Of a stretch of DNA of 64,000 nt, positions 6,259 to 63,711 are shown piece by piece. Below the pieces are notes generated by a model. That model was not told the origin of the DNA, made no database searches, and worked only from the letters and a program-made list of their open reading frames with translations. The stretch comes from Eubacteriaceae bacterium (lineage in GTDB: Bacteria > Bacillota > Clostridia > Eubacteriales > Alkalibacteraceae): contig JAAXUP010000005.1 in NCBI GenBank assembly GCA_013335935.1, positions 1 to 64,000 on the forward strand, given 5' to 3'. How positions within the stretch are numbered: position 1 is the first letter of the stretch; every line of letters begins with the position of its first letter. The position numbers were made by a program, and so were the translations under genes.

Positions 6259-6260
6259 GT

Positions 6261-6986
6261 TTACGATGCAACCGCTACCAGTAAAAATGAGTTGTCTTTA
6301 TCAAAATTCTTCCCGGTAAAATCTCCCATGAAATCGATCCTGCTGAAACCGGCATCTGTTAAAAGCCTACGCAAATCATCAGAACGCAGCGGGAAAAGAG
6401 GAATCTCATTTTCTATCTGAACCTCTTCAACATTTAATATTGTCCTGAAGTAGATCCTGTTCTCTTTCTGATCGTACCGATAAAGCCTTTGGAAAGTAAG
6501 ACCTGCCGACTTATTTTCTATCGTCGGAAGGGATTTTACGTCGTATTTCAAGATCCTGTCGTAATTGATGACCTGAAGGATAAGCTTTCCCTGAGGTTTT
6601 AAAAGCTTCTTCACACCGGTCAAAAATTCTAAAATGGCATCATTGCTGTTAAGGTGCACAATGGAATTGCCGATACAAAAAGCAGTGTCATAGTTTCCAC
6701 CTATGGAACTTTCCAGGTTAAGCATATTGGCAGTTGCGACTTTAATAGGGAGACTATTCTCCCTGGATTTCTTTTTCAAAGCCTCCACCATGCTGCTGTC
6801 CAAATCCACCGCTGTCATTATGTACCCTTTTTTTGCAAGGCTGACCGAGTAGCCCCCTGTTCCGCAAGCGATGTCCAGAAGCTCTTTGGGAGACTCCCCT
6901 GCAGTATTCACAATAAAATCGATCTGATCATTTCCGACTGGAAATATTTCATCATAATATTTTGCTATTTCTTCATAAAAACCCAT
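6261..6986 (-). CDS. Class I SAM-dependent methyltransferase
   Basis: 241 residues. The SAM-binding Rossmann motif I is LLDIACGTGGYSVSLAKKG (about residues 36-54), motif II ends in AVDLDSSMVE, and FCIGNSIVHL is motif IV. These identify the methyltransferase-11/25 superfamily, but not the acceptor, which may be a small molecule, tRNA or protein. The start ATG 6986 follows GAAGGAGGAAG. It is the last gene of a probable three-gene minus-strand group with ygiQ-like and pgsA genes, 41 bases after pgsA. Function beyond methyl transfer from SAM is unknown. Confidence 0.85.
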   Translation of the reverse strand: MGFYEEIAKYYDEIFPVGNDQIDFIVNTAGESPKELLDIACGTGGYSVSLAKKGYIMTAVDLDSSMVEALKKKSRENSLPIKVATANMLNLESSIGGNYDTAFCIGNSIVHLNSNDAILEFLTGVKKLLKPQGKLILQVINYDRILKYDVKSLPTIENKSAGLTFQRLYRYDQKENRIYFRTILNVEEVQIENEIPLFPLRSDDLRRLLTDAGFSRIDFMGDFTGKNFDKDNSFLLVAVAS

Positions 6987-7027
6987 TTTCTTCCTCCTTC
7001 GTGTTCATGGCTGTCTTGACATCAAAT

Positions 7028-7603
7028 TCATACACCTTTCCCATGGGAATTTTCTCCTTGCTTCTCTTCGGTCCGGCGTTTTTTAATCGCCTGCCAGTAG
7101 GTATAAAGGTAGCTCACCAGAGCGGTCATGGTCAACACAATGGAAGCATAGAGCATAAAGTATAACTGTTTGTTTTCCGGGAAGATCATCATCAATACGA
7201 TGGATACTGTGAAAAGTACCGTGGCGCTTTTTCCAAATATATTTGCAGGGATGACGATCCTGTCTTTCCTGAAGAAGAGCACGGACGTGGAAAGGATCAA
7301 AAAGGCTTCTTTTATGATCACAACAGGCAATATGAAGCCCGGTATGATTCCTTTGAGATAGAGGCTTACGAGAACTGTAAGCAGCATGAGTTTGTCTGCA
7401 AATGGATCCAATACTTTTCCAAGATCCGTTATATAGTTGTATTTCCGGGCGATATAACCATCCAGAAGGTCGGTGAAGGATGCGGCTGCATATACCCCAA
7501 GAGCTGCCAGCCTGGCATTCTCCAAATCGGAGAAAAATACATAAACGAATACGGGTACCAGCAAAATTCTTAATCCAGACAAAATATTTGGAATGTTCTT
7601 CAT
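7028..7603 (-). CDS. pgsA: CDP-diacylglycerol-glycerol-3-phosphate 3-phosphatidyltransferase
   Basis: 191 residues. The CDP-alcohol phosphatidyltransferase signature D-x2-D-G-x2-A-R-x8-G-x3-D-x3-D is complete: DLLDGYIARK, then GKVLDPFADK at about residues 58-83. Roughly five to six membrane helices surround it. The enzyme makes phosphatidylglycerol phosphate, the committed step to phosphatidylglycerol and cardiolipin. ATG 7603 is chosen over an in-frame GTG three codons earlier because it is ideally spaced from AAGGGGTG. A related phosphatidylserine or inositol phosphate synthase is less likely given the N-terminal MKNIPNILSGLRILLVPVF, which is typical of PgsA. The C-terminus is rich in charged residues (KKRRTEEKQGENSHGKGV). 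Confidence 0.92.
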   Translation of the reverse strand: MKNIPNILSGLRILLVPVFVYVFFSDLENARLAALGVYAAASFTDLLDGYIARKYNYITDLGKVLDPFADKLMLLTVLVSLYLKGIIPGFILPVVIIKEAFLILSTSVLFFRKDRIVIPANIFGKSATVLFTVSIVLMMIFPENKQLYFMLYASIVLTMTALVSYLYTYWQAIKKRRTEEKQGENSHGKGV

Positions 7604-7627
7604 TGTAATCACCCCTTCGGAATAAGT

Positions 7628-9574
7628 CTATCTTTTCTTTCTTCCTTTTACAGCCTTGCTTCTCTGAACTTTCTTACCCTCATTACCTCCGGTCTTTCTT
7701 TCCCCTGATGTCTTTTTATCGGGTTTCCCCTGATAATTCTTTTGAGGTGTTTTTCCCTGAGCGTTTTTGAAATCCCCTGAACCTCTGCCTGGCTTTATGA
7801 GACAATTTTTCCCAAAGCCGATCAAATCGGTCCTTCCAGCCTTGACCAACGCTTCATAAACCAGCTGATAATTCTGGGGTTTACGATATTGGATCAGCGC
7901 TCTTTGCATGGCCTTCTCATGGGGTGACTTTGGAATGTAAACCTCCTCCATCGTCCTGGGATCTAAGCCTGTATAAAACATTGTTGTAGACATTGTGGCG
8001 GGGGTTGGGTAAAAATCCTGCACCTGCTCTGGCATAACTCTCAGATCCCTCAGATATTCTGCCAGCTCAACAGCATCCTTCAGTGTGGAACCTGGATGAC
8101 TGGACATGAGATAAGGAACCAGAAACTGGTTCATCCCCAAATCCTTATTGATCTTATTATATTTTTTTACGAATCTGTCATAAATATCACGTTGAGGTTT
8201 ACCCATCTTTTGAAGCACACCAGGTGATACATGTTCAGGCGCAATTTTCAGCTGGCCGCTGATATGATGCTGGCAAAGCTCCCTGAAGAATTCATCATTT
8301 TTATCATATATCAAATAGTCATAACGAAGACCTGACCTGACGAATACCTTTTTCACTTTTGGCAGCACTCTCAGTGCCCTTAACAGTTTCAGGTAATCCT
8401 GATGGTCTATTTTAAGCTGCTTGCAGGGCGCAGGAAACAGACATTGCTTGTCCCGACAAACTCCATGTTCGATTTGTTTTTCACATGCCCTGTCCCGAAA
8501 GTTGGCCGTAGGTCCGCCCACATCGTGAATATAGCCTTTGAAGTCAGGCTCCTCCGTGATATGCTGAGCTTCCTCAATGATCGACTGGTGGCTTCTGACT
8601 TGTACAACTCTTCCCTGGTGGAACGTTAGTGCGCAGAAGTTGCAGCTTCCAAAGCATCCTCGGTTGCTGATCAGGCTGAATTTGACTTCCTTTATCGCTG
8701 GGATACCACCCATACTTTCATAGATGGGATGATAGTTTCTCATATATGGCAAAGCATAAACATTGTCAAGCTCCGACTGGCTCATGGGATCGGCAGGGGG
8801 ATTTTGAACGACATACCAGTTTTTATAAGGCTCCATGAGAGGTTTCCCCTGGATGGAATCCATATTCTTGTATTGGAGCATAAAACTTTCCGCATATTTT
8901 CTCTTTGATGCAAGAATCTCATCGTAATGGGGAAGCCATAAGGGTTTGTATGCCCGGTCTTTATCCTTAGTCTTATAGGCAGTGCCTTTTATAAAGGTGA
9001 TCTCACTGACAGGCAGTCCGCTATCCAGGGCTTCTGCGATGTCAACGATCTGTTGCTCCCCCATACCGTATACGACGATGTCGGCTTTTGCATCCAGAAG
9101 AATCGACCTTCGGACCTTGTCCGACCAGTAATCATAATGGGCAAACCTGCGAAGGGAAGCTTCAATTCCGCCGAGAATAATAGGCACATCGCTGTAGGCA
9201 TCCTTTATTTTTTGTGAATAGATGATGACCGCTCGGTCTGGCCGGTATCCGGATTTTCCCCCTGGAGAATAAAGATCGTCTTTTCTTCTTTTCCTGGCTG
9301 CGGAGTAATGGTTCACCATGGAATCAATATTCCCTGAGGTAACCAAAAATCCCAGTCTTGGCTTTCCAAATCTTTTGAAATCACTGGTATCGTTCCAGGC
9401 TGGCTGAGGAATGATTCCAACTTTGTATCCCCGGTTTTCCAGCACCCGTCCGATCACGGCTGCTCCAAAGGAAGGATGGTCTACATACGCATCACCTGAG
9501 ACCAGCACAAAATCTAGCTGGTCCCAGCCTCTTTCAGTCATATCCTCTTTATTTATAGGCAGATATTTTTTCAT
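7628..9574 (-). CDS. YgiQ-family radical SAM protein
   Basis: About 648 residues. The [4Fe-4S]-binding motif C-x3-C-x2-C is seen in [19 protein letters not shown], near residue 315. The N-terminal half is a B12-binding-like Rossmann domain, and the C-terminus has the YgiQ-specific domain followed by a long basic tail rich in Lys, Gly and Arg (about the last 50 residues) that may bind nucleic acid or ribosomes. The family is widespread in bacteria but no reaction is firmly established. ATG 9574 is preferred because GAGG lies six bases upstream; an in-frame ATG at 9586 is also possible. First gene of the group with pgsA and the methyltransferase. Confidence 0.9.
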
Positions 9575-46869: not shown

Positions 46870-46898
46870 TTGACAAAAACCCGAAAATGGAGTACGAT
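46870..46898 (+). promoter_or_regulatory. Promoter of the first corrinoid methyltransferase operon
   Basis: TTGACA, 17 bases, TACGAT: a strong sigma-A match. It leaves an untranslated leader of about 165 bases before the GTG at 47072. The leader can form short stems (for example ACCTC with GAGGT near 46916-46943), but no cobalamin riboswitch core was recognised. Confidence 0.65.
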
Positions 46899-47071
46899 TA
46901 AATTACGAAAAGTTGACCTCATTAAAAAATCAATATCGAGGTTAATCCCTATTCGGTGGCAAGATCATTCGTACCATGTAATCGGTAACAAATCATAGAT
47001 TGCATTTACCTGAATTTGATCGAATCGTCGAGTAGAAAAAAGAATAAAATGCAAATGGAGGTAGACTGATA

Positions 47072-47875
47072 GTGATCATTATTGGAGAAAAAATTAATGG
47101 TGCGATTCCTTCTGTAGCGAAGGCAATTGCAGCAAAAGACGCAGACTTTATTCGCAATCTGGCGAAGGTACAAACAGAAGCAGGGGTAACTTTTATCGAT
47201 GTATGTGCTTCCGTAGACGATGACATCGAACTGGAAACCATGAAATGGCTGATCGATATCGTACAGGAGGCAACAGATCTTCCAATCGCAGTGGACAGCC
47301 CCAACGTGTACACTTGTATCGAAGCTATGAAATTCTGCAACAAGCCGGGCTTGTTCAACTCCGTTTCTTTGGAAGGCGGCAAGGTTGATTTGGCATTCCC
47401 CATTATCGCGGATACCAAATGGGAGGTTGTTGCCCTTTTAAACAGCGACAAAGGAATCCCAAAAACCGCACAAGACCGTCTTGACGTATTTGACGAATTG
47501 ATGGCAAAAGCCAAAGAGTACAACATTGCGCCATCCCGTTTTCACATTGATCCCCTGGTTGAAATGCTTTGCACCTCGGAAGACGGCATCAAGATGGTCA
47601 CCGAAGTGATCGGAAAAATCAAAGCCGCCTACCCTACCATCCATGTAACCGGAGCGGTCAGTAATATTTCCTTTAACCTTCCGGCAAGAAGGATCGTCAA
47701 TCAGGCCTTTACCGTACTGGCCATAAACGCCGGCATGGACAGCGGTATTTTAGATCCTTTAAACAAAGACCTGATGGGCATGATTTATGCGACTGAAGCG
47801 TTACTGGGTGAAGATGAATATTGCATGGAATATATAGGAGCCTTCAGAGAAGGTATATTCGGTGCAAAGAAATAA
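47072..47875 (+). CDS. Methyltetrahydrofolate:corrinoid methyltransferase (MT II), copy 1
   Basis: 267 residues from GTG 47072, with GGAGG ten bases upstream. A pterin-binding TIM barrel of the AcsE/MtgA/MtvA family: IIIGEKINGAIPSVAKAI at the N-terminus, GVTFIDVCASVDDD, AVDSPN, FHIDPLVEML and TGAVSNISFNLPARR are its folate-site blocks. It moves a methyl group between the corrinoid protein and tetrahydrofolate, the second half-reaction of demethylation systems in acetogens (as in OdmD/MtvA). The corrinoid protein and substrate methyltransferase follow in the same operon. It is closely related to the copy at 62.9 kb. Confidence 0.93.
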   Translation: MIIIGEKINGAIPSVAKAIAAKDADFIRNLAKVQTEAGVTFIDVCASVDDDIELETMKWLIDIVQEATDLPIAVDSPNVYTCIEAMKFCNKPGLFNSVSLEGGKVDLAFPIIADTKWEVVALLNSDKGIPKTAQDRLDVFDELMAKAKEYNIAPSRFHIDPLVEMLCTSEDGIKMVTEVIGKIKAAYPTIHVTGAVSNISFNLPARRIVNQAFTVLAINAGMDSGILDPLNKDLMGMIYATEALLGEDEYCMEYIGAFREGIFGAKK

Positions 47876-47912
47876 TCAATAATAAAATTTTAAAAATACA
47901 GGAGGAATTTAA

Positions 47913-48542
47913 ATGTCAAAGATTTTAGAAGTAAAAGCAAAAGTAGAAGCAGGAAAAACGAAACTGATCGCAGGTTTAGTACAGGAAGCCTTGGATGAAG
48001 GCATCAAAGCAGAAGACATTCTTCAGGCTATGGTAGACTCCATGGGCGTTGTAGGAGACAAATTCTCTACAGGAGAAATCTTTGTACCAGAAATGCTTAT
48101 CGCTGCAAAAGCTATGGCGAAAGGTGTGGAAGTTCTTAAACCTTTAATGGCAAGCGACAGCGCTTCTTCTTTGGGAACTTGCATCATCGGAACCGTAGCA
48201 GGAGACCTTCATGACATTGGTAAAAACCTTGTATCCATGATGGTTGAAAGCGCAGGCTTTAAAATGGTTGACCTTGGAGTAGACGTACCGGCACAAAAAT
48301 TTGTTGATGCCATCAAAGAAAATGAAAATGTAACTTTAGTTGCCTGCTCAGGACTTCTTACCACAACTATGCCAGCACTGAAAGAAGCTGTTGAGACAAT
48401 CAAAGCCAGCGGACTAGCTGTAAAAGTTATCGTTGGAGGAGCTCCTGTAACTCCGGAATATGCCGCTGAAATTGGCGCAGATGGCTATGCTCCTGATGCA
48501 GGCAGCGCAGCTGTAAAAGCGAAAGAATTAGTAACAGCTTGA
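47913..48542 (+). CDS. Corrinoid protein, copy 1
   Basis: 209 residues. A helical cap domain (about 1-85) precedes a B12-binding Rossmann domain with the ligand motif Asp98-x-His100-x2-Gly103 in AGDLHDIGKNLVSMM; His100 should bind cobalt from below. GLLTTTMPALKEAV and VGGAPVTPEYAAEIGADGYA contact the cofactor tail. It shuttles the methyl group between the URO-D enzyme encoded next and the MT II encoded before. Excellent ribosome binding site (AGGAGG). It is about 90 % identical to the protein at 49.9 kb by eye. Confidence 0.95.
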   Translation: MSKILEVKAKVEAGKTKLIAGLVQEALDEGIKAEDILQAMVDSMGVVGDKFSTGEIFVPEMLIAAKAMAKGVEVLKPLMASDSASSLGTCIIGTVAGDLHDIGKNLVSMMVESAGFKMVDLGVDVPAQKFVDAIKENENVTLVACSGLLTTTMPALKEAVETIKASGLAVKVIVGGAPVTPEYAAEIGADGYAPDAGSAAVKAKELVTA

Positions 48543-48575
48543 CTCATACCCTAATCTAAGGAGGCAGCAAACTAT

Positions 48576-49553
48576 ATGTTGACAATAAGACAAAATTTAA
48601 TGGAAACGATCAAAGGCGGAAGCCCGGATCGCTTTGTGAACCAATACGAATTTATGGAAATAATCATGGAAGCACCCATGGGAACTTTTGTTACACCAGG
48701 ACAGATCGTTAAAAACGAATGGGGCATCACCTTCAGCTGGCCAGAAGGCCAACTTGGGGGTTTCCCAGTGCACGACGCCGAGCATAAGGTGTTGAAAGAC
48801 ATCTGTGAGTGGAGAAAATATGTTAAAGCGCCTGCTGTCAATACTTCTGACGAAGCTTGGGCTGCAGCTGTAGAACATGCAAACGCTGTAGATCGTAACG
48901 AAAAATTCGTTACCCCATTTGTTGCACCTGGCATCTTTGAAATGACTCATCACCTTATGGGTATGGAGGACGCATTAATGGCTTTATACGAAGAGCCTGA
49001 AGCCATGCATGAGCTCATTGACTACCTGACAGAATATGAGTTAGCTTACGCTAAAGAACTCATCAGCCGTCTTCATCCGGATGCGCTTTTCCATCATGAC
49101 GACTGGGGCAGCCAAATTTCTTCCTTCGTTGCTCCTGAAATGTTTGAAGAATTCTTTGTTCCTGCTTATAAGAAAATCTATGGCTTCTACAAAGAAAATG
49201 GCGTTGAATTGATTGTTCACCATAGTGATACTTTTGGAGCTAATCTGGTTCCTTCAATGATCGAAATGGGCATCGACATCTGGCAGGGAGTTATGACTAC
49301 TAACAACACCCCTGAACTGATCAAGAAATATGGTCCACAAATTACTTTCATGGGAGATCTGGACAGCGGTAAAATCGATTTCCCTGGCTGGACACCTGAA
49401 ATCATTGCTGAACATGTAGAAAGAGCTTGCAAAACTTGTGGAAAATTATACTTTATCCCGAATTTAACACAAGGCTTGAATTTCAGTTCTTTCCCAGGCG
49501 TTTATGAAGAAACAACTGCAGCAATCGACAGAATGAGCAAAGAAATGTTCTAG
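48576..49553 (+). CDS. URO-D-family substrate:corrinoid methyltransferase (MT I), copy 1
   Basis: 325 residues, uroporphyrinogen-decarboxylase fold without the decarboxylase role. LMETIKGGSPDRFVNQYEF at the front, FHHDDWGSQISSFVAPEMF in the middle and LIVHHSDTFGANLVPSMIEM define the acetogen demethylase type (OdmB/VdmB-like). The His-x-Cys zinc motif of MtaA is not present at the usual place (it reads His-His-Ser-Asp); Cys residues in ACKTCGKLYF near the C-terminus may help bind zinc. It should move a methyl group from a methoxylated aromatic or other methylated substrate to the corrinoid protein. A terminator follows. Confidence 0.9.
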   Translation: MLTIRQNLMETIKGGSPDRFVNQYEFMEIIMEAPMGTFVTPGQIVKNEWGITFSWPEGQLGGFPVHDAEHKVLKDICEWRKYVKAPAVNTSDEAWAAAVEHANAVDRNEKFVTPFVAPGIFEMTHHLMGMEDALMALYEEPEAMHELIDYLTEYELAYAKELISRLHPDALFHHDDWGSQISSFVAPEMFEEFFVPAYKKIYGFYKENGVELIVHHSDTFGANLVPSMIEMGIDIWQGVMTTNNTPELIKKYGPQITFMGDLDSGKIDFPGWTPEIIAEHVERACKTCGKLYFIPNLTQGLNFSSFPGVYEETTAAIDRMSKEMF

Positions 49554-49565
49554 ATCCTATATTCA

Positions 49566-49611
49566 CAGCAAGGCCAAGTATAATTTTTATACCTGGCCTT
49601 GCTGCCTTTTT
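49566..49611 (+). terminator. Rho-independent terminator of corrinoid module 1
   Basis: CAGCAAGGCCA pairs with TGGCCTTGCTG, with an inner TATA/TATA pairing, followed by CCTTTTT. Confidence 0.92.
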
Positions 49612-49684
49612 GTCTTCATTTAGTATGGATCCAACTGAAATTAATTGATATTTAAAATAATATCGCATTTTTACAAAAAATAAT

Positions 49685-49712
49685 TTGTAATCATCCTTAA
49701 TATTGATTACAA
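49685..49712. promoter_or_regulatory. Operator-like dyad ahead of corrinoid module 2
   Basis: TTGTAATCA (49685-49693) and TGATTACAA (49704-49712) form a perfect 9-bp inverted repeat with 10 bases between. No such site was seen ahead of module 1, so module 2 may have its own regulator. Confidence 0.45.
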
Positions 49713-49873
49713 TTATATTATACATAAATAATATTAATTTATGCTAATATTATCTGAACGAAAGTTTATACCCGACAGCCGTGTAAAGGTTTACATTCAA
49801 AGAAAAATCAAACACATTTCTTCTGCTGAGATATCTCCCAGTAGAAGTTAAAATTAATAAGGAGGAATAGTTA

Positions 49874-50506
49874 ATGTCAAAAATTGCAGAAGTAAAAGCA
49901 AAGGTAGAAGCAGGAAAAACAAAACTAGTAGCAGGTTTAGTACAGGAAGCATTGGATGAAGGCGACAAAGCGGAAGATATCCTTCAGGCCATGGTAGACT
50001 CTATGGGTGTTGTGGGCGACAAATTCTCTACCGGAGAAATTTTCGTACCGGAAATGCTTATTGCAGCAAAAGCAATGGCAAAAGGTGTGGAAGTCCTCAA
50101 GCCTCTTATGGCAGGAGACAGCGCTTCTTCATTAGGTACCTGTGTTATCGGTACTGTAGCAGGCGATTTGCATGACATCGGAAAGAACCTTGTTTCCATG
50201 ATGATCGAAAGCGCAGGCTTTAAAATAGTTGATCTTGGGGTAGACGTACCTGCTCAAAAATTTGTAGATGCCGTAAAGGAAAATGACAATGTAACCTTGG
50301 TAGCATGCTCCGGTCTTCTCACCACAACGATGCCTGCACTTAAAGAAGCTGTTCAAACCCTCAAAGCCAGCGGATTAACTGGATTTAAAGTAATCGTCGG
50401 CGGAGCGCCTGTAACACCTGAGTATGCAGTCGAAGTAGGTGCAGATGGATACGCTCCTGATGCAGGAAGCGCTGCTGTAAAAGCAAAAGAATTGGTTACT
50501 GCTTAA
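49874..50506 (+). CDS. Corrinoid protein, copy 2
   Basis: 210 residues, nearly the same sequence as copy 1, with the same cobalt-binding motif GDLHDIGKNL (His100) and the same start MSKI-x-EVKAKVEAGKTKL. Differences from copy 1 are conservative (for example one extra residue in SGLTGFKVIVGG). Because the corrinoid proteins are so alike, both could interact with the same MT II and activator, while the methyltransferases encoded downstream differ more and may set substrate range. Start behind AAGGAGG. Not preceded by an MT II gene in this module. Confidence 0.95.
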   Translation: MSKIAEVKAKVEAGKTKLVAGLVQEALDEGDKAEDILQAMVDSMGVVGDKFSTGEIFVPEMLIAAKAMAKGVEVLKPLMAGDSASSLGTCVIGTVAGDLHDIGKNLVSMMIESAGFKIVDLGVDVPAQKFVDAVKENDNVTLVACSGLLTTTMPALKEAVQTLKASGLTGFKVIVGGAPVTPEYAVEVGADGYAPDAGSAAVKAKELVTA

Positions 50507-50540
50507 GCCCTGAACCATAAATTTAAGGAGGTCGATATAT

Positions 50541-51521
50541 ATGTTAACCAAAAGACAAAATTTGATGGAGACCATGAAAGGCGGCAAACCTGATCGCTTT
50601 GTAAATCAGTATGAGTTCATGCAAATGATAATGTCTGTTCCCATCACACGTGTCAGACCGGCAATCGGCGAAGAGAAAGTAAATGAATGGGGCGTTACCT
50701 TCCGATGGCCAGAAGGTCAACTTGGAGGTTTCCCGGTTCACGATGAAGAGCATATCCTGATAAAAGACATCGAAAATTGGAAAGATTACGTTAAAGCACC
50801 TTCAGTAAAGCGCCCTGAAGAAGATTGGGTTCCTGCCATAGAAGCTGCAAATGCGGTAGATCGAAATGACCAATTTGTAACTTGTTTTGTCGCACCAGGC
50901 CTTTTCGAGCAAACTCATCACTTTATGCGAATGGAAAATGCCTTGACAGCTTTTTATGAGTATCCAGATGAAATGCACGAGCTCATCGATTACCTGGTTG
51001 AATACGAGCTGACCTATGCAAAGGAGCTTATTGATCATATTCACCCTGACTGCATTTTCCATCATGATGACTGGGGCGGACAGATTTCCACCTTCCTTTC
51101 TCCTAAAATGTTCGAAGAATTCTTTCTTGAGCCTTATAAAAAAATCTACGGATATTATAAGGCAAATGGCGTCGAATTGATCGTTCACCACAGCGATAGC
51201 TACGCTGCCACGTTGGTACCCTATATGATCGAAATGGGTATCGATATCTGGCAAGGCGTTATGACCAGCAATCATACCCCTGAGCTTATCAAAAAGTACG
51301 GTGGAAAAATCACCTTCATGGGAGACCTTGACAGCGGTGTGATTGATTTCCCTGCATGGAATTCTGAAATAATCGCTAAAGAAGTGGAAAGAGCCTGCAA
51401 AACATGCGGAAAATTGTATTTTATTCCTTGCCTGACTCAAGGCCTGGGGATCAGCTCCTTCCCTGGCGTTTACGAAGAAACCTCTGCAGCAATTGACAGA
51501 ATGAGCAAGGAATTGTTCTAG
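50541..51521 (+). CDS. URO-D-family substrate:corrinoid methyltransferase (MT I), copy 2
   Basis: 326 residues, colinear with copy 1 at 48.6 kb (LMETMKGGKPDRFVNQYEFM, FHHDDWGGQISTFLSPKMF, LIVHHSDSYAATLVPYMIEM) but clearly more diverged than the corrinoid proteins, especially in residues 30-45 (MSVPITRVRPAIGEEKVNEW) and 80-110, which line or approach the substrate pocket. This pattern fits duplication followed by change of substrate. Start behind AAGGAGG. It ends at a long bidirectional terminator shared with the convergent third URO-D gene. Confidence 0.9.
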   Translation: MLTKRQNLMETMKGGKPDRFVNQYEFMQMIMSVPITRVRPAIGEEKVNEWGVTFRWPEGQLGGFPVHDEEHILIKDIENWKDYVKAPSVKRPEEDWVPAIEAANAVDRNDQFVTCFVAPGLFEQTHHFMRMENALTAFYEYPDEMHELIDYLVEYELTYAKELIDHIHPDCIFHHDDWGGQISTFLSPKMFEEFFLEPYKKIYGYYKANGVELIVHHSDSYAATLVPYMIEMGIDIWQGVMTSNHTPELIKKYGGKITFMGDLDSGVIDFPAWNSEIIAKEVERACKTCGKLYFIPCLTQGLGISSFPGVYEETSAAIDRMSKELF

Positions 51522-51546
51522 TCACAGAATAACTATTACATTAATA

Positions 51547-51595
51547 TAGCTCTATTCGGAAAAGATCCTTCAGATCCTTTTCCAGAATAGAGCTA
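51547..51595. terminator. Long bidirectional terminator
   Basis: TAGCTCTATTC pairs with GAATAGAGCTA and, inside, GGAAAAGATC with GATCCTTTTCC (one bulge). A and T runs flank both sides. It separates MT I copy 2 from the convergent third URO-D gene. Confidence 0.88.
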
Positions 51596-51612
51596 TTTCT
51601 TTATTTACAAAA

Positions 51613-52518
51613 CTACTGTCTTTCAATTGATTTGTCATCAATCGTCTGATAGATATTTCTTAAACCATGGAGATCCATGCCAGTGAAAAGACCGCTGTTG
51701 GTGCCAAGTATAAATCCCTTAAAATCTGTAGTCTCTTTCATCTGGCCGACCAATTGATTTAATCCGGCTTCCTCCCTGGATGCCTTCAGGTCCTCGATAT
51801 CCAGATGGCCCCATAAACAGATTTTTTTGCTGTATGGTGCAAGTTCTTCCAGACTCACGCCGCAATTCTTATCGATGCAATGGATCCCTTTAAAACCTGC
51901 ATCAATAACATCCTCCATGATCGAAAGATAATTCCCATCAGAGTGGAAAAACGGGATCATATTCTTCTGACTGACGGCTCTCACCTGTCTTTCCAGGGAA
52001 GGCAAAAACAGTTCCCTGAAAAGCTGATGCCGAATGATCAGACCATCCTGATAGGCAACATCATCTGCGATGATGATTCCATTTACTCCTAGATCAGCCA
52101 GCTTCGAAGCGGTCTCCATATTTAATCTTTCCACACGCTCTACAAATTCCAGTGTGTCTTCGGGATCTTCCATGATCATGGACAAAAATTCTTCAAATCC
52201 AAATACCCGCATACCAAGTTCAAATGCGCCATCCAAAAGAACAAAACTAAATAAGCTGGTTTTCTTCGTCCACGCCTCGACGTTCATACTTTCAAGCTCA
52301 ATGCTCACTTCCCCCTGATCATGAAGATATTTCGGCGATAAGCTGATGATATCCAGTCCTAGAGAATGTGCAAATTCCGATCTTTCTTCAAAACCAATGG
52401 TTTTACAGGTTAAGGCCTTTTGGATCACTTCATCATCAAGTACCAGTTCTCCTTTTGGCACCTTAAATGTAGCTTGCCGTTTGATTGTTTGTATCACTAA
52501 TTCACGGGAACTTATCAT
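51613..52518 (-). CDS. Divergent URO-D-family methyltransferase-like protein
   Basis: 301 residues from ATG 52518, giving the normal family start (MISSRELVIQTIKRQATFKV); AGGAG lies 13 bases upstream. GTG 52554 is possible but has no ribosome binding site. The URO-D fold is seen in DLGVNGIIIADDVAYQDGLI, MIPFFHSDGNYLSIMEDVID and CIDKNCGVSLEELAPYSKKI. The region after it (GFILGTNSGLFTGMDLHGLR) resembles corrinoid methyltransferases rather than HemE. It is only distantly related to the two MT I proteins and lacks its own corrinoid gene. Function: perhaps a third substrate-specific methyltransferase using the same corrinoid proteins. Confidence 0.8.
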   Translation of the reverse strand: MISSRELVIQTIKRQATFKVPKGELVLDDEVIQKALTCKTIGFEERSEFAHSLGLDIISLSPKYLHDQGEVSIELESMNVEAWTKKTSLFSFVLLDGAFELGMRVFGFEEFLSMIMEDPEDTLEFVERVERLNMETASKLADLGVNGIIIADDVAYQDGLIIRHQLFRELFLPSLERQVRAVSQKNMIPFFHSDGNYLSIMEDVIDAGFKGIHCIDKNCGVSLEELAPYSKKICLWGHLDIEDLKASREEAGLNQLVGQMKETTDFKGFILGTNSGLFTGMDLHGLRNIYQTIDDKSIERQ

Positions 52519-52636
52519 CTGTTCAAATTCACTCCTATCAAATAACTCTATCACTATTTTACCATGACATGGGTTTAAAAATAAACTCCATTCAGATATT
52601 TATACGACTTATTTTTAACAATTTAATAAATCTAGA

Positions 52637-52721: not shown

Positions 52722-52805
52722 AACAAGAATAGCGTCTTAGACGCGTTATTCAAGTAGACTAGGAAAGTTTGGACCCCAGCGAGCTAGTCGAACTTTCCTA
52801 GTCTA
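52722..52805 (+). repeat. Stem-loop repeat family, copy A (84 nt, RACo leader)
   Basis: Two hairpins. First: GAATA-GCGTC pairs with GACGC-GT-TATTC (2-base bulge). Second: TAGACTAGGAAAGTT (52755-52769) pairs perfectly with AACTTTCCTAGTCTA (52791-52805) around a 21-base loop containing CCCCAGCGAGCTAG. It is 82/84 identical to copy B at 54624-54707. Confidence 0.92.
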
Positions 52806-52837
52806 AAATATTTCTCAAAATTAAAGGAGACGAATTT

Positions 52838-54625
52838 ATGGGCAGAAATGTGATCGTAAATTTTCCACTGCTGAAAGAAAGCATCGAGGTAGCGGAGAAG
52901 ACATTGCTTTCAGAGGCCTGTGCAATCGCAGGGTATCCACTGAACCTGGTTTGCGGAGGTAAGGGAAAATGCAAGAAATGCGCTGTGGAAATCGAAGAAG
53001 ACGGTGAATTAAAAAAAGTACTATCCTGTAAAACTGAAGTTTATGATGGAATAAAGGTAATGCTCAAAGAGGAGGAACAGAAGGTTCAGATCCTTACTTC
53101 CTCCACACTTGACAGCACTCCTTTAGATCCTTCCCTGCGTTTGATAACCATTGAAAGTTCAAAGCTTAAAACGGAGCTTTGTGAAAACGATTGGGAAACT
53201 TTGCGCAAGGCTATTGGAAATGGCATTGAATATCCCTCCCTGGAGGTTTTGCAGAAGTTATCATTTCATTATCATGACCCTGCAGGCATAAAGCTTGTGC
53301 TAAACCACAACAAAATTATCGATGTGCTGCCTGGGAGCAACAATAATACCCTCTATGGAATCGCCTTTGACCTGGGTACAACCTCCGCTGTAGGCTACCT
53401 GTACGACATGCAGGATTTAACCATGATCGGGATCAGTTCCACGCTGAATAAGCAGACAGAAATGGGCGGTGATGTCATCAGCCGGATATCCTATTGTGTC
53501 ACAGATCATGCTAATCTACTCAAACTGCAGAAACTTGCCATGAATACGCTGAATCAGATCATTGAGGAACTATGCGGGAAATACAAAATAAACCCGGATG
53601 ATATCTATTTGGCAGTCGTTGGGGGCAACAGCACCATGCAGCATTTATTCCTGGGGATCTATCCGGAATTTTTAGGAAAGGCTCCCTTTACAAGCACTAC
53701 CCATCTGGGTGTCAATACACCTGCCCGAACATTGCATTTGAAAATCAATCCTAAGGGTGTTGTCACCTTCCTTCCTCTTTTAGGAGGATTTGTCGGGGCA
53801 GATACGACGGCTGTTCTGATTTCCCTGCCAAAGGACAACAGAGTCAGGCTCATGCTGGATCTGGGAACCAATGGTGAAATCGCAGTGGGAAAAAATACTT
53901 GCTATAAGGTATCTTCAACGGCATGCGGTCCCGCACTGGAAGGTGCTGGGCTCTCGTACGGAATGCGCGGCACCCATGGCGCTATCGAAAGAGTATCTTT
54001 AGAAAACGGAGATATCAAATACCAGGTCATCGGCAATCAAAAGCCTCTGGGCATCTGTGGCTCAGGAGTGATCGATCTGATATCCGTTTTGTTCAACAAC
54101 GATGTCATCAAAGCCAGCGGTTCATTGAGCGATCCGTCAGAAATAGAAAATCCGAATATTGCCAGGCGGCTGGTCAACAGAAAAGAACAGAAGGTATTCA
54201 TTATTGCATTCGCTGACGAGACTGCCAATGGTGAGGATATTTATTTCAGTCAGCTGGATATCCGCCAGGTCCAACTGGCGAAAGGTGCCATCTACACCGG
54301 CTGTATGATGGTTCTGGAGGATTATGGAATAAAGGGAGCGGATCTGGCTGAAATCACCATCGCTGGCGCCTTTGGAAACTACATTGATGTTACCCATGCC
54401 CAGTCCATTGGAATGCTCCCTTACTTTGAAGGCGTCCCTGTCCGGTCTTTAGGGAATGCCGCAGGCACAGGCTGCCAGATGTATCTTCTTTCAAAAGAAA
54501 AGCAGACAGAATGCGAGGATATTGCGAAAAATGCCATCCATGTGGAACTGGCCAATAATCCCAACTTCTCCACACACTATGTAATGAATACTTCTTACAT
54601 TAATTTGCTTGAAGAGCAGGAGTAA
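52838..54625 (+). CDS. Reductive activator of corrinoid proteins (RACo; ASKHA + 2Fe-2S)
   Basis: 595 residues. An N-terminal plant-type ferredoxin domain has the cluster ligands Cys39-x5-Cys45-x2-Cys48 and Cys64 (VCGGKGKCKKC, LSCKT). A linker and middle domain follow, then the ASKHA ATPase domain (DUF4445 region): YGIAFDLGTTSAVGYLYDMQ, the conserved LDLGTNGEIAVGK and TIAGAFGNYIDVTHA. In O-demethylase systems this protein (AE/OdmC) uses ATP to drive electrons onto Co(II) and return the corrinoid to Co(I). It serves presumably all corrinoid proteins in the window. Flanked on both sides by the same 84-nt repeat. Start behind AAAGGAG. Confidence 0.94.
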   Translation: MGRNVIVNFPLLKESIEVAEKTLLSEACAIAGYPLNLVCGGKGKCKKCAVEIEEDGELKKVLSCKTEVYDGIKVMLKEEEQKVQILTSSTLDSTPLDPSLRLITIESSKLKTELCENDWETLRKAIGNGIEYPSLEVLQKLSFHYHDPAGIKLVLNHNKIIDVLPGSNNNTLYGIAFDLGTTSAVGYLYDMQDLTMIGISSTLNKQTEMGGDVISRISYCVTDHANLLKLQKLAMNTLNQIIEELCGKYKINPDDIYLAVVGGNSTMQHLFLGIYPEFLGKAPFTSTTHLGVNTPARTLHLKINPKGVVTFLPLLGGFVGADTTAVLISLPKDNRVRLMLDLGTNGEIAVGKNTCYKVSSTACGPALEGAGLSYGMRGTHGAIERVSLENGDIKYQVIGNQKPLGICGSGVIDLISVLFNNDVIKASGSLSDPSEIENPNIARRLVNRKEQKVFIIAFADETANGEDIYFSQLDIRQVQLAKGAIYTGCMMVLEDYGIKGADLAEITIAGAFGNYIDVTHAQSIGMLPYFEGVPVRSLGNAAGTGCQMYLLSKEKQTECEDIAKNAIHVELANNPNFSTHYVMNTSYINLLEEQE

Positions 54626-54707
54626 CAAGAATAGCGTCTTCGACGAGTTATTCAAGTAGACTAGGAAAGTTTGGACCCCAGCGAGCTAGTCGAACTTTCC
54701 TAGTCTA
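54624..54707 (+). repeat. Stem-loop repeat family, copy B (84 nt, at RACo stop codon)
   Basis: Same two-hairpin structure as copy A, with two substitutions, both in the first hairpin (GTCTTCGACGAG instead of GTCTTAGACGCG). It starts two bases inside the RACo stop codon and ends seven bases before the terminator hairpin. Confidence 0.92.
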
Positions 54708-54713
54708 TAACAA

Positions 54714-54770: not shown

Positions 54771-55295
54771 TTAATACAGCACTCCGCCGATGTAGGTGAC
54801 CGTATTGGGTCCATTATTGTACTTCAGGCCATTATCCTTCATCAAGGACATAACATCGATTCCATGGGCTTCAAGGGAGATGATTTTGTCATTGGGGCGC
54901 CTGCAGGGTTCACCTTTACTATAGGTGCATTCTTTGCATAGGGTGCAGCCTCCAACACCTAAGATCATACTATTAAACTGATCGCCGATCTCATTCTTGA
55001 CCTTTAATAATCTGTTTTGAAAATCAACGACAGATTCAACCATGCCCTCCCAGTCATATTGATCCTCCAGCTGGTATACTTCGTGCAATACAATGAAATT
55101 CTTGTATTTGGAAAACGTGCCTTTGATCGTCTCTAAGCTTGCAATTGCAGGGGGACATGCCCAGTTTTTTCCGTAGCTTCCGCAGTGATTTTTCTCGCAC
55201 AGGGCTCTGACCTCATCCCGGAGTATAATTGAATCCATTGGAATTTCACTGTAGTTTGATATATGTTTTTTTATGACCTCAACGATTTCTTGCAT
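54771..55295 (-). CDS. DUF2284 cysteine-rich metal-binding protein
   Basis: 174 residues from ATG 55295, behind AAGGAGG; a longer frame would start upstream of this site. Cysteine motifs: ALCEKNHCGSYGKNWACPP at about residues 30-48 and GGCTLCKECTYSKGEPCRRP at about 118-137, enough to hold one or two Fe-S clusters or zinc. DUF2284 proteins are often found next to corrinoid methyltransferase and activator genes, and may supply electrons or help load the corrinoid, but their role is unproved. Convergent with RACo. Confidence 0.85.
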   Translation of the reverse strand: MQEIVEVIKKHISNYSEIPMDSIILRDEVRALCEKNHCGSYGKNWACPPAIASLETIKGTFSKYKNFIVLHEVYQLEDQYDWEGMVESVVDFQNRLLKVKNEIGDQFNSMILGVGGCTLCKECTYSKGEPCRRPNDKIISLEAHGIDVMSLMKDNGLKYNNGPNTVTYIGGVLY

Positions 55296-55383
55296 TAGAT
55301 GCCGCCTCCTTTTTCCTTCTTTCATTCTATTTCATGACTATCCTCTTGTCAATATTTATCATGTTCATTTTTCAGATCCAGCC

Positions 55384-62898: not shown

Positions 62899-63711
62899 TT
62901 AACCGATGATGCCTTTTCGAACGGCTGCTGAGAATTTTCTGGTATGTCTGTCTCTCCCAAGGAGCGCTTCTGATGCAAAAATCGAGCTCATGATTTCCTT
63001 GTTCAAAGGATCCATGATAGCCGAATCCATGCCTGCATAGATGGCCAGGGTCATGAAATTCTGGTTGATGAGTTTTCTTGCAGGCATTCCAAAGGAAATG
63101 TTGCTAAGTCCTGATGTTATCTTGACGGTAGGGTAAACCGCTTTGATCTTATTGATACTGTCAATAAAATTGATAAGGGACTGATTATCAGTAGAAAGGG
63201 CCATAACCAGGGGATCGATGTGGATCCTGTCTGGGGTAATGCCATACTTTGCCGCTTTTTCGATGATTTTTAAAGCAATATCCACTCTCGGCTGTACGTC
63301 GCAGGGAATACCGCTGTTGTCGCAGGTAAGGGCCACAACTTCCCAGTCATTGCCTTCCATCAGAGGGAAAATGACATCGCATTTATCCTGGTCTGTTCCT
63401 GCTACCATCTCCAAATTGACGGAGTTAATCAGGCCTTGCTTTTTGATGAACGGGATGACTTCTTTCAGAAATATTGGATTTGGACTATCGATGCAGATTG
63501 GCGTATCCACGGCATCCTGAACGATGTCGATCAGCCATTTTAACGTTTCCACCTCAACATCCGGCGCGGTGGAAGCGCATACATCGATGAAGTTGGCGCC
63601 TGCTTCGGCTTGTTTGATGGCTCTGTCTCTGATGAAATCAGCATTTCTTTCTTCGATCGCCTTTTTAACGGGTGGAATTGTTCCGTTGATTTTTTCTCCG
63701 ATAATAATCAA
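62899..63711 (-). CDS. Methyltetrahydrofolate:corrinoid methyltransferase (MT II), copy 2
   Basis: 270 residues from TTG 63711, behind AGGAGGG. Same family and blocks as copy 1 (IIIGEKINGTIPPVKKAIEE, ANFIDVCASTAPDVE, ICIDSPN, IHIDPLVMAL, TSGLSNISFGMPARKLI). It moves methyl groups between a corrinoid protein and tetrahydrofolate. Transcription runs from the corrinoid-protein gene at the window edge into it, 52 bases apart. It differs from copy 1 in many positions, including a longer stretch VEMVAGTDQDKCDVIFPLME-type loop, and likely belongs to a third demethylation module that continues outside the window. Confidence 0.92.
   Translation of the reverse strand: MIIIGEKINGTIPPVKKAIEERNADFIRDRAIKQAEAGANFIDVCASTAPDVEVETLKWLIDIVQDAVDTPICIDSPNPIFLKEVIPFIKKQGLINSVNLEMVAGTDQDKCDVIFPLMEGNDWEVVALTCDNSGIPCDVQPRVDIALKIIEKAAKYGITPDRIHIDPLVMALSTDNQSLINFIDSINKIKAVYPTVKITSGLSNISFGMPARKLINQNFMTLAIYAGMDSAIMDPLNKEIMSSIFASEALLGRDRHTRKFSAAVRKGIIG

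Follow-up and report, generated by a model that had tools for sequence, protein, structure and literature searches.

Shuttle and exit components, rather than entry enzymes, probably evolve in concert in a predicted methyl-ether demethylation cluster of an Alkalibacteraceae bacterium

Why are two neighbouring corrinoid proteins nearly identical when the methyltransferases encoded beside them are not? The question arises from a 64,000-nucleotide stretch of DNA from a Eubacteriaceae bacterium (Alkalibacteraceae), here called the window: positions 1 to 64,000 of contig JAAXUP010000005.1, assembly GCA_013335935.1. Gene content marks the region from 47072 to 51521 as a probable methyl-ether demethylation cluster with the order MT II-CP1-MTI1-terminator-CP2-MTI2, and with a gene for RACo, a reductive activator of corrinoid proteins, nearby. 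Here methyltransferase I (MT I) is the substrate:corrinoid methyltransferase, the corrinoid protein (CP) is the B12-binding shuttle, and methyltransferase II (MT II) is the methylcorrinoid:tetrahydrofolate methyltransferase. The explanation favoured by the comparisons set out below, and very probably the right one, is that CP and MT II genes evolve in concert within a genome, most simply by gene conversion, and that the MT I genes are spared. The corrinoid proteins would then be alike because they have been homogenised within each genome, and not because they evolve slowly. That the homogenised proteins act as a shared hub is a functional reading which we infer in addition.

The five genes lie on the plus strand in the order in which a first-pass annotation, made from the sequence alone, had placed them, and their open reading frames were confirmed. 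They encode MT II (47072-47875, 267 residues from a GTG start; NF005719, 341.7 bits against a cutoff of 259), CP1 (47913-48542, 209 residues; PF02310 and PF02607), MTI1 (48576-49553, 325 residues, URO-D family; PF01208, 64.7 bits, above cutoff), CP2 (49874-50506, 210 residues; PF02607 and PF02310) and MTI2 (50541-51521, 326 residues, URO-D family). The best Protein Data Bank (PDB) match of MT II (2e-86) is 4o0q/4o1e, which has been named as a reference structure for an MT II of this type (PMC13222342). That only module 1 has an MT II gene was also correct; 49554-49873 contains no second MT II reading frame. The components of an O-demethylase system are present, namely an MT II of the methyltetrahydrofolate:corrinoid family, a two-domain CP, URO-D MT Is and a RACo-type activator, and the same MT II-CP-MT I order occurs in Acetobacterium, Desulfosporosinus and others.

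The CPs had been called almost identical and the URO-D enzymes much more diverged, and at the protein level that is so: CP1 and CP2 are 92.8% identical (nonsynonymous divergence, dN, 0.043) and MTI1 and MTI2 74.1% (dN 0.168), with 15 of 209 residues differing in the one pair as against 84 of 324 in the other (Fisher p=1.4e-8). Equal divergence of both pairs on proper alignment had been named as what would refute the reading. Though as proteins they have not diverged equally, at four-fold silent sites they have, the identities being 0.51 for the CPs and 0.43 for the MT Is with no contrast between them (p=0.31). Both pairs are therefore old, and CP1 and CP2 were last homogenised long ago.

More recent events come into view elsewhere in the same genome, which is in 268 contigs and 98% complete, and which has seven MT I, four CP and two MT II genes of this type. 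Contig C162 carries MT II-CP3-MTI3, CP4-MTI4 and, in addition, MTI5. CP3 is 100% identical to CP1 in amino acids with a silent-site identity of 0.86 (synonymous divergence, dS, 0.17), and the two MT IIs are 98% identical with a silent identity of 0.82 (dS 0.23), while silent sites are saturated in the adjoining MT I genes (silent identity 0.43, dS at least 1.4); for CP against MT I silent sites p=5e-10. Sliding identity between the two loci is about 0.95-1.0 over CP and most of MT II, with a local minimum of about 0.85, and drops at the CP stop codon; the MT II-CP spacer has diverged. Across the genome MT I pairs have 66-75% DNA identity and CP pairs are never far below 84%. Contamination of the bin was considered as the cause and rejected: C162 and the window agree in GC content (0.422 and 0.418) and tetranucleotide usage (r 0.977) and have a dispersed repeat in common, and the pattern recurs in genomes that are single contigs (G001, G008, G012 and G035 of our comparison set).

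A syntenic cluster in Alkalibacter (G001), MT II-CP-MT I-CP-MT I next to a RACo gene whose product is 62% identical, permits paralogues to be set against orthologues. MTI1 is 78.8% identical to its Alkalibacter orthologue and 74.1% to MTI2, and MTI3 is 79.1% identical to its own orthologue. MTI2 is the weak case: its identity is 72.3% with the orthologue and 74.1% with MTI1, and on the tree it is joined to the second MT I of the Alkalibacter cluster with a support of 95. With that exception, MT I orthologues are at 79% and paralogues at 66-74%. For CP the relation is reversed: copies in the window genome are 93-100% identical and those in the Alkalibacter genome 98.5-100%, but across the genera the figure is 72-75%. 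MT II behaves as CP does (orthologues 81%, paralogues 98.5-100%). The initial description of CP as a conserved protein must accordingly be given up; between genera it diverges as much as MT I or more, and its uniformity is a property of each genome.

The same emerges from 46 CP-MT I pairs in ten genomes. On the CP tree there are 18 changes of genome label where shuffled data have a mean of 32.6, none of 200 shuffles being as low, so that CPs are clustered by genome; on the MT I tree there are 34 where shuffling gives 33.0, and the MT Is group instead by cross-genus orthologue group. Clades on the CP DNA tree unite the six CPs of an Alkalibacter genome (support 99), the four of the window genome (90) and the two of G002 (97). 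Approximately unbiased (AU) tests reject the placing of CP1 with its orthologue (p=2e-36) and of CP2 with its orthologue (p=5e-55), and reject equally a clade of the window genome's own MT Is (p=8e-48) and one of MTI1 with MTI2 (p=0.0013). From these trees the MT Is descend as ancient orthologue groups common to the genera, and are not homogenised. Whenever two modules of one Eubacteriales genome are compared, CP likeness exceeds MT I likeness, saturation at silent sites notwithstanding, and in the strongest cases CP silent identities of 0.95-0.99 stand beside 0.33-0.43 for MT I. Where MT I orthology is clear, CP paralogues are closer than CP orthologues in 36 of 78 quartets, and in all 12 of those with an Alkalibacteraceae genome.

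Can it be told whether the likeness arose at loci that already existed? Two Acetobacterium genomes, G008 and G035, each have two loci whose flanking synteny is kept. The MT Is of these loci pair across the species (93-94% as against 63-64%), whereas MT II and CP pair within the species, and the likeness therefore postdates the species split and was acquired at pre-existing loci. In G035 the tract concerned is 1586 bp long at 99.75% identity and ends exactly at the CP stop codon, the adjoining MT I being at 63%. Identity falls at the CP ends in four genomes, and the MT II-CP spacers differ in two; in these, G000 and G012, the spacer is divergent or non-homologous, yet both genes that flank it are near-identical. 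A run test on silent sites, which looked for recombination breakpoints inside individual genes, gave no significant result, the tract being the gene as a whole; tract ends coincide with gene ends. Homogenisation of this kind recurs in G000, G001, G005, G008, G012, G035 and A. tundrae, that is, in at least five species; in the window genome itself, likeness at silent sites is evident for CP1/CP3 and for MT II, and weak for CP1/CP2.

Could purifying selection have done this unaided, with CP slow because it docks with several partners, MT I diverging for substrate, and no conversion at all? In its favour is the greater likeness of CPs whichever modules of a Eubacteriales genome are paired, saturated silent sites included, as well as a CP pair in a metagenome-assembled genome labelled A. 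woodii (Acetobacterium) which is 98% identical with a silent identity of only 0.50. Some Acetobacterium CP pairs thus reach 98% identity although their silent sites are saturated, and purifying selection therefore contributes too. As the sole cause, however, selection is contradicted by CP silent identities that reach 0.86 in this genome and 0.99 in others, next to MT I values of 0.33-0.43, and across genera MT I orthologues resemble each other more closely than CP orthologues do, the opposite of what a slow protein should give. In single-module Desulfosporosinus loci the ratio of CP dN to MT I dN has a median of 1.38 (in the Desulfosporosinus comparisons with an MT I dN above 0.08 it is at least 0.63, with a median of about 1.05), as against 0.26 in the window pair, though these are orthologue comparisons and faster divergence of paralogous MT Is could explain part of the gap to the window; the silent-site and synteny results are independent of that caveat. 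Selection by itself is thus highly improbable, and it stays as a contributor. Such pairs are one of several points that weigh against concerted evolution. The window CP pair has a silent identity of just 0.51, not above that of its MT Is, and any conversion there is old; the link between C162 and the window is one of assembly and composition alone; and in Acetobacterium homogenisation is episodic, being seen in a minority of within-genus quartets, with A. dehalogenans lacking a recent event.

A different history would have MT I genes arriving by horizontal transfer, each then furnished with a new duplicate of the MT II-CP cassette already in the genome, so that recent duplication and not conversion made the copies alike. 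Genome labels are indeed scattered at random on the MT I tree, the MT II-CP unit is found on either side of MT I, and some tracts span MT II, spacer and CP. However, the five-gene order with RACo is syntenic between genera and the flanks of the Acetobacterium quartet are syntenic, and both loci are therefore older than the identity of their CPs; nor would a moved cassette leave the divergent or non-homologous spacers of G000 and G012 between near-identical genes. This history is very unlikely. A rival of another kind accepts conversion and denies it meaning: each CP would serve its own MT I only, and homogenisation would be a neutral by-product of likeness, since sequence likeness by itself permits conversion. 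Most MT Is do have a neighbouring CP, and a search for contact residues, as MT I alignment columns that follow genome rather than orthologue group, gave few and weak matches. Such private pairing nonetheless seems unlikely in view of MT Is that outnumber CPs and MT IIs, MT I genes whose nearest CP gene, if any, is more than 6 kb away, an Alkalibacter mobilis cluster with three MT Is to one CP, the precedent of CP sharing in Eubacterium limosum (PMC8604678), and the two-module Desulfosporosinus genomes, where CP (78-81%) and MT I (79-85%, four genomes) diverge alike.

What, on the concerted-evolution reading, would homogenisation be for? In the reaction steps standard for the family, each MT I would demethylate its particular substrate and load the methyl onto a CP in its Co(I) state, MT II would pass the methyl from CP to tetrahydrofolate, and RACo would re-reduce cobalt that had become oxidised. 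Homogenisation would keep one interchangeable pool of shuttle and exit proteins that is compatible with every entry enzyme. With all the MT Is, MT II and RACo as docking partners, CP would be under a constraint that keeps its copies alike and so permits more conversion; conversion and purifying constraint both act on CP. MT I genes would be spared because their DNA likeness, at 66-75%, is probably too low for frequent recombination, while CP copies are alike enough to recombine.

A shared hub, with several entry enzymes leading into one downstream path, is the likely function, because of the funnel in gene number, the MT Is without a CP of their own and the E. limosum precedent. The MT I:CP:MT II numbers are 7:4:2 in the window genome and 12:7:2 and 9:5:1 in Alkalibacter, the A. 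mobilis cluster (L163) has the order MT I-CP-MT I-MT I, and several MT Is lack a CP gene closer than 6 kb. The first-pass annotation had proposed a common downstream path with two entry enzymes; the shared path is still the best functional reading, though the entry enzymes are seven and there is a second MT II on C162. A more general scheme seems to us somewhat better than an even bet: in genomes with many MT Is, conversion would keep every CP and every MT II exchangeable for its other copies, and a new MT I, whether gained by descent or from outside, could join the common pool; the shuttle would drift as one unit in each lineage, and in one- and two-module genomes CP and MT I would diverge jointly.

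Concerted evolution itself is already known. In the Methanosarcinales it has been described for mtmB with mtmC and for mtbB with mtbC (PMC6053082), and for mtrA (PMC4632066). As there, genes of a methyltransferase system, corrinoid proteins among them, are homogenised within a genome, silent sites included; the difference is that homogenisation there takes in MT I along with CP, as isozymes, and here affects only CP and MT II and spares the adjoining MT I. The 26 concerted-evolution genes listed include no CP or MT II from bacteria (PMC6053082), and no report of concerted evolution of CP or MT II in acetogens was found in the literature searched, to which most subscription journals did not belong. 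What appears to be new is that, in a modular operon, homogenisation is confined to those components which the modules share. The acetogen O-demethylases (Moorella MtvABC, Odm and Vdm of A. dehalogenans, those of Desulfitobacterium hafniense) likewise have MT II-CP-MT I sets with a RACo-type activator, a URO-D MT I and a tetrahydrofolate-linked MT II; the window genome differs in having several modules with homogenised CPs and MT IIs. In E. limosum one CP, MtqC, serves MtyB, MtcB and MtpB (PMC8604678), so that there too several substrate-specific MT Is lead onto one CP and one MT II, but those MT Is are of the MttB superfamily and the single CP gene acts in trans, whereas here URO-D MT Is have many near-identical CP genes in cis. 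The Cdm chloromethane system of A. dehalogenans is also an MT I-CP-MT II set with the URO-D fold; its substrate is a haloalkane, it has tunnel-forming extensions between the first three strands, and concerted evolution was not reported for it (PMC13222342).

The look-alike corrinoid proteins of many acetogen O-demethylase-like sets may, then, owe their likeness to concerted evolution and not to simple conservation. CP and MT II sequences would then be no guide to orthology or substrate in such genomes, and MT I alone would be one. Whether modular pathways keep their carrier proteins interchangeable could be tested directly in this system, and within the carrier pool of a single genome one MT I, natural or engineered, may be able to replace another.

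Which substrates enter? Methoxylated aromatics are the probable ones for the cluster; CdmB, a relative in the same superfamily, acts on haloalkanes rather than aryl methyl ethers (PMC13222342). An AlphaFold2 (AF2) model of MTI1 (mean predicted local distance difference test score, pLDDT, 96.8) has the UROD/MtaA fold and matches uroporphyrinogen decarboxylases and the Methanosarcina methyltransferase 4ay7. By sequence MT I matched no PDB chain, whether searched singly or in profile form. The MTI1/MTI2 differences had been placed especially near the predicted pocket. With the pocket mapped by way of the secondary structure of the model, this holds for residues 27-46, an N-terminal extension after the first strand, where differences are enriched (p=5e-6), and fails for the generic barrel mouth, where they are not (p=0.87). 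N-terminal control of substrate spectrum is reportedly the subject of one paper (reference 34 of PMC12915777), to go by its title. In CdmB, extensions between the first strands make the substrate tunnel (PMC13222342), and with the concentration of differences in residues 27-46 this makes it likely that MTI1 and MTI2 use different substrates. A zinc motif, E-X14-E-X20-H, is present in only 59 of 126 MT Is and so was not used.

Between the modules, an intrinsic terminator (hairpin plus T-run) lies on the plus strand at 49566-49604 (RNA folding energy -25.6 kcal/mol, z -7.0), and the syntenic Alkalibacter spacer has a hairpin too. The terminator-separated control region proposed for module 2 is upheld as to the hairpin; promoter matches in the spacer were no better than chance. 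A long hairpin at 51546-51596 (-26.7 kcal/mol, z -6.9), probably a terminator, separates MTI2 from a convergent gene for a third, distant URO-D protein (51613-52554, minus strand), whose best matches outside its own genome are about 41% identical (Clostridium loci). RACo is at 52838-54625 on the plus strand (595 residues; PF14574, PF17651). It is bracketed by two copies (52728-52808 and 54630-54710) of an 81-nucleotide double-hairpin element (fold z -5.9), a dispersed repeat resembling repetitive extragenic palindromes and bacterial interspersed mosaic elements (REP/BIME-like), with at least 40 copies in the genome at 86-100% identity, one of them just 3′ of MTI3 on C162. An Rfam scan of the window gave no match. 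Beyond RACo is a gene for a DUF2284 metal-binding protein (54771-55325, minus strand); its relatives repeatedly accompany MT I genes, in Acetobacterium and Desulfosporosinus among others, with 27 matches in the loci compared.

On C162 a DUF3237 protein and a glycyl-radical enzyme are encoded between two demethylase modules (6259-9299, minus strand). The latter (815 residues) is of the pyruvate formate-lyase (PFL)/dehydratase type and is under every NCBIfam equivalog cutoff; no activating enzyme was seen adjoining. A second type of MT II, at 62899-63711 of the window and 21243-22055 of contig C112, has 94.2% DNA identity between its two copies over 834 bp, with associated CPs that are 83.5% identical, and from its sequence homogenisation may extend beyond the demethylase modules.

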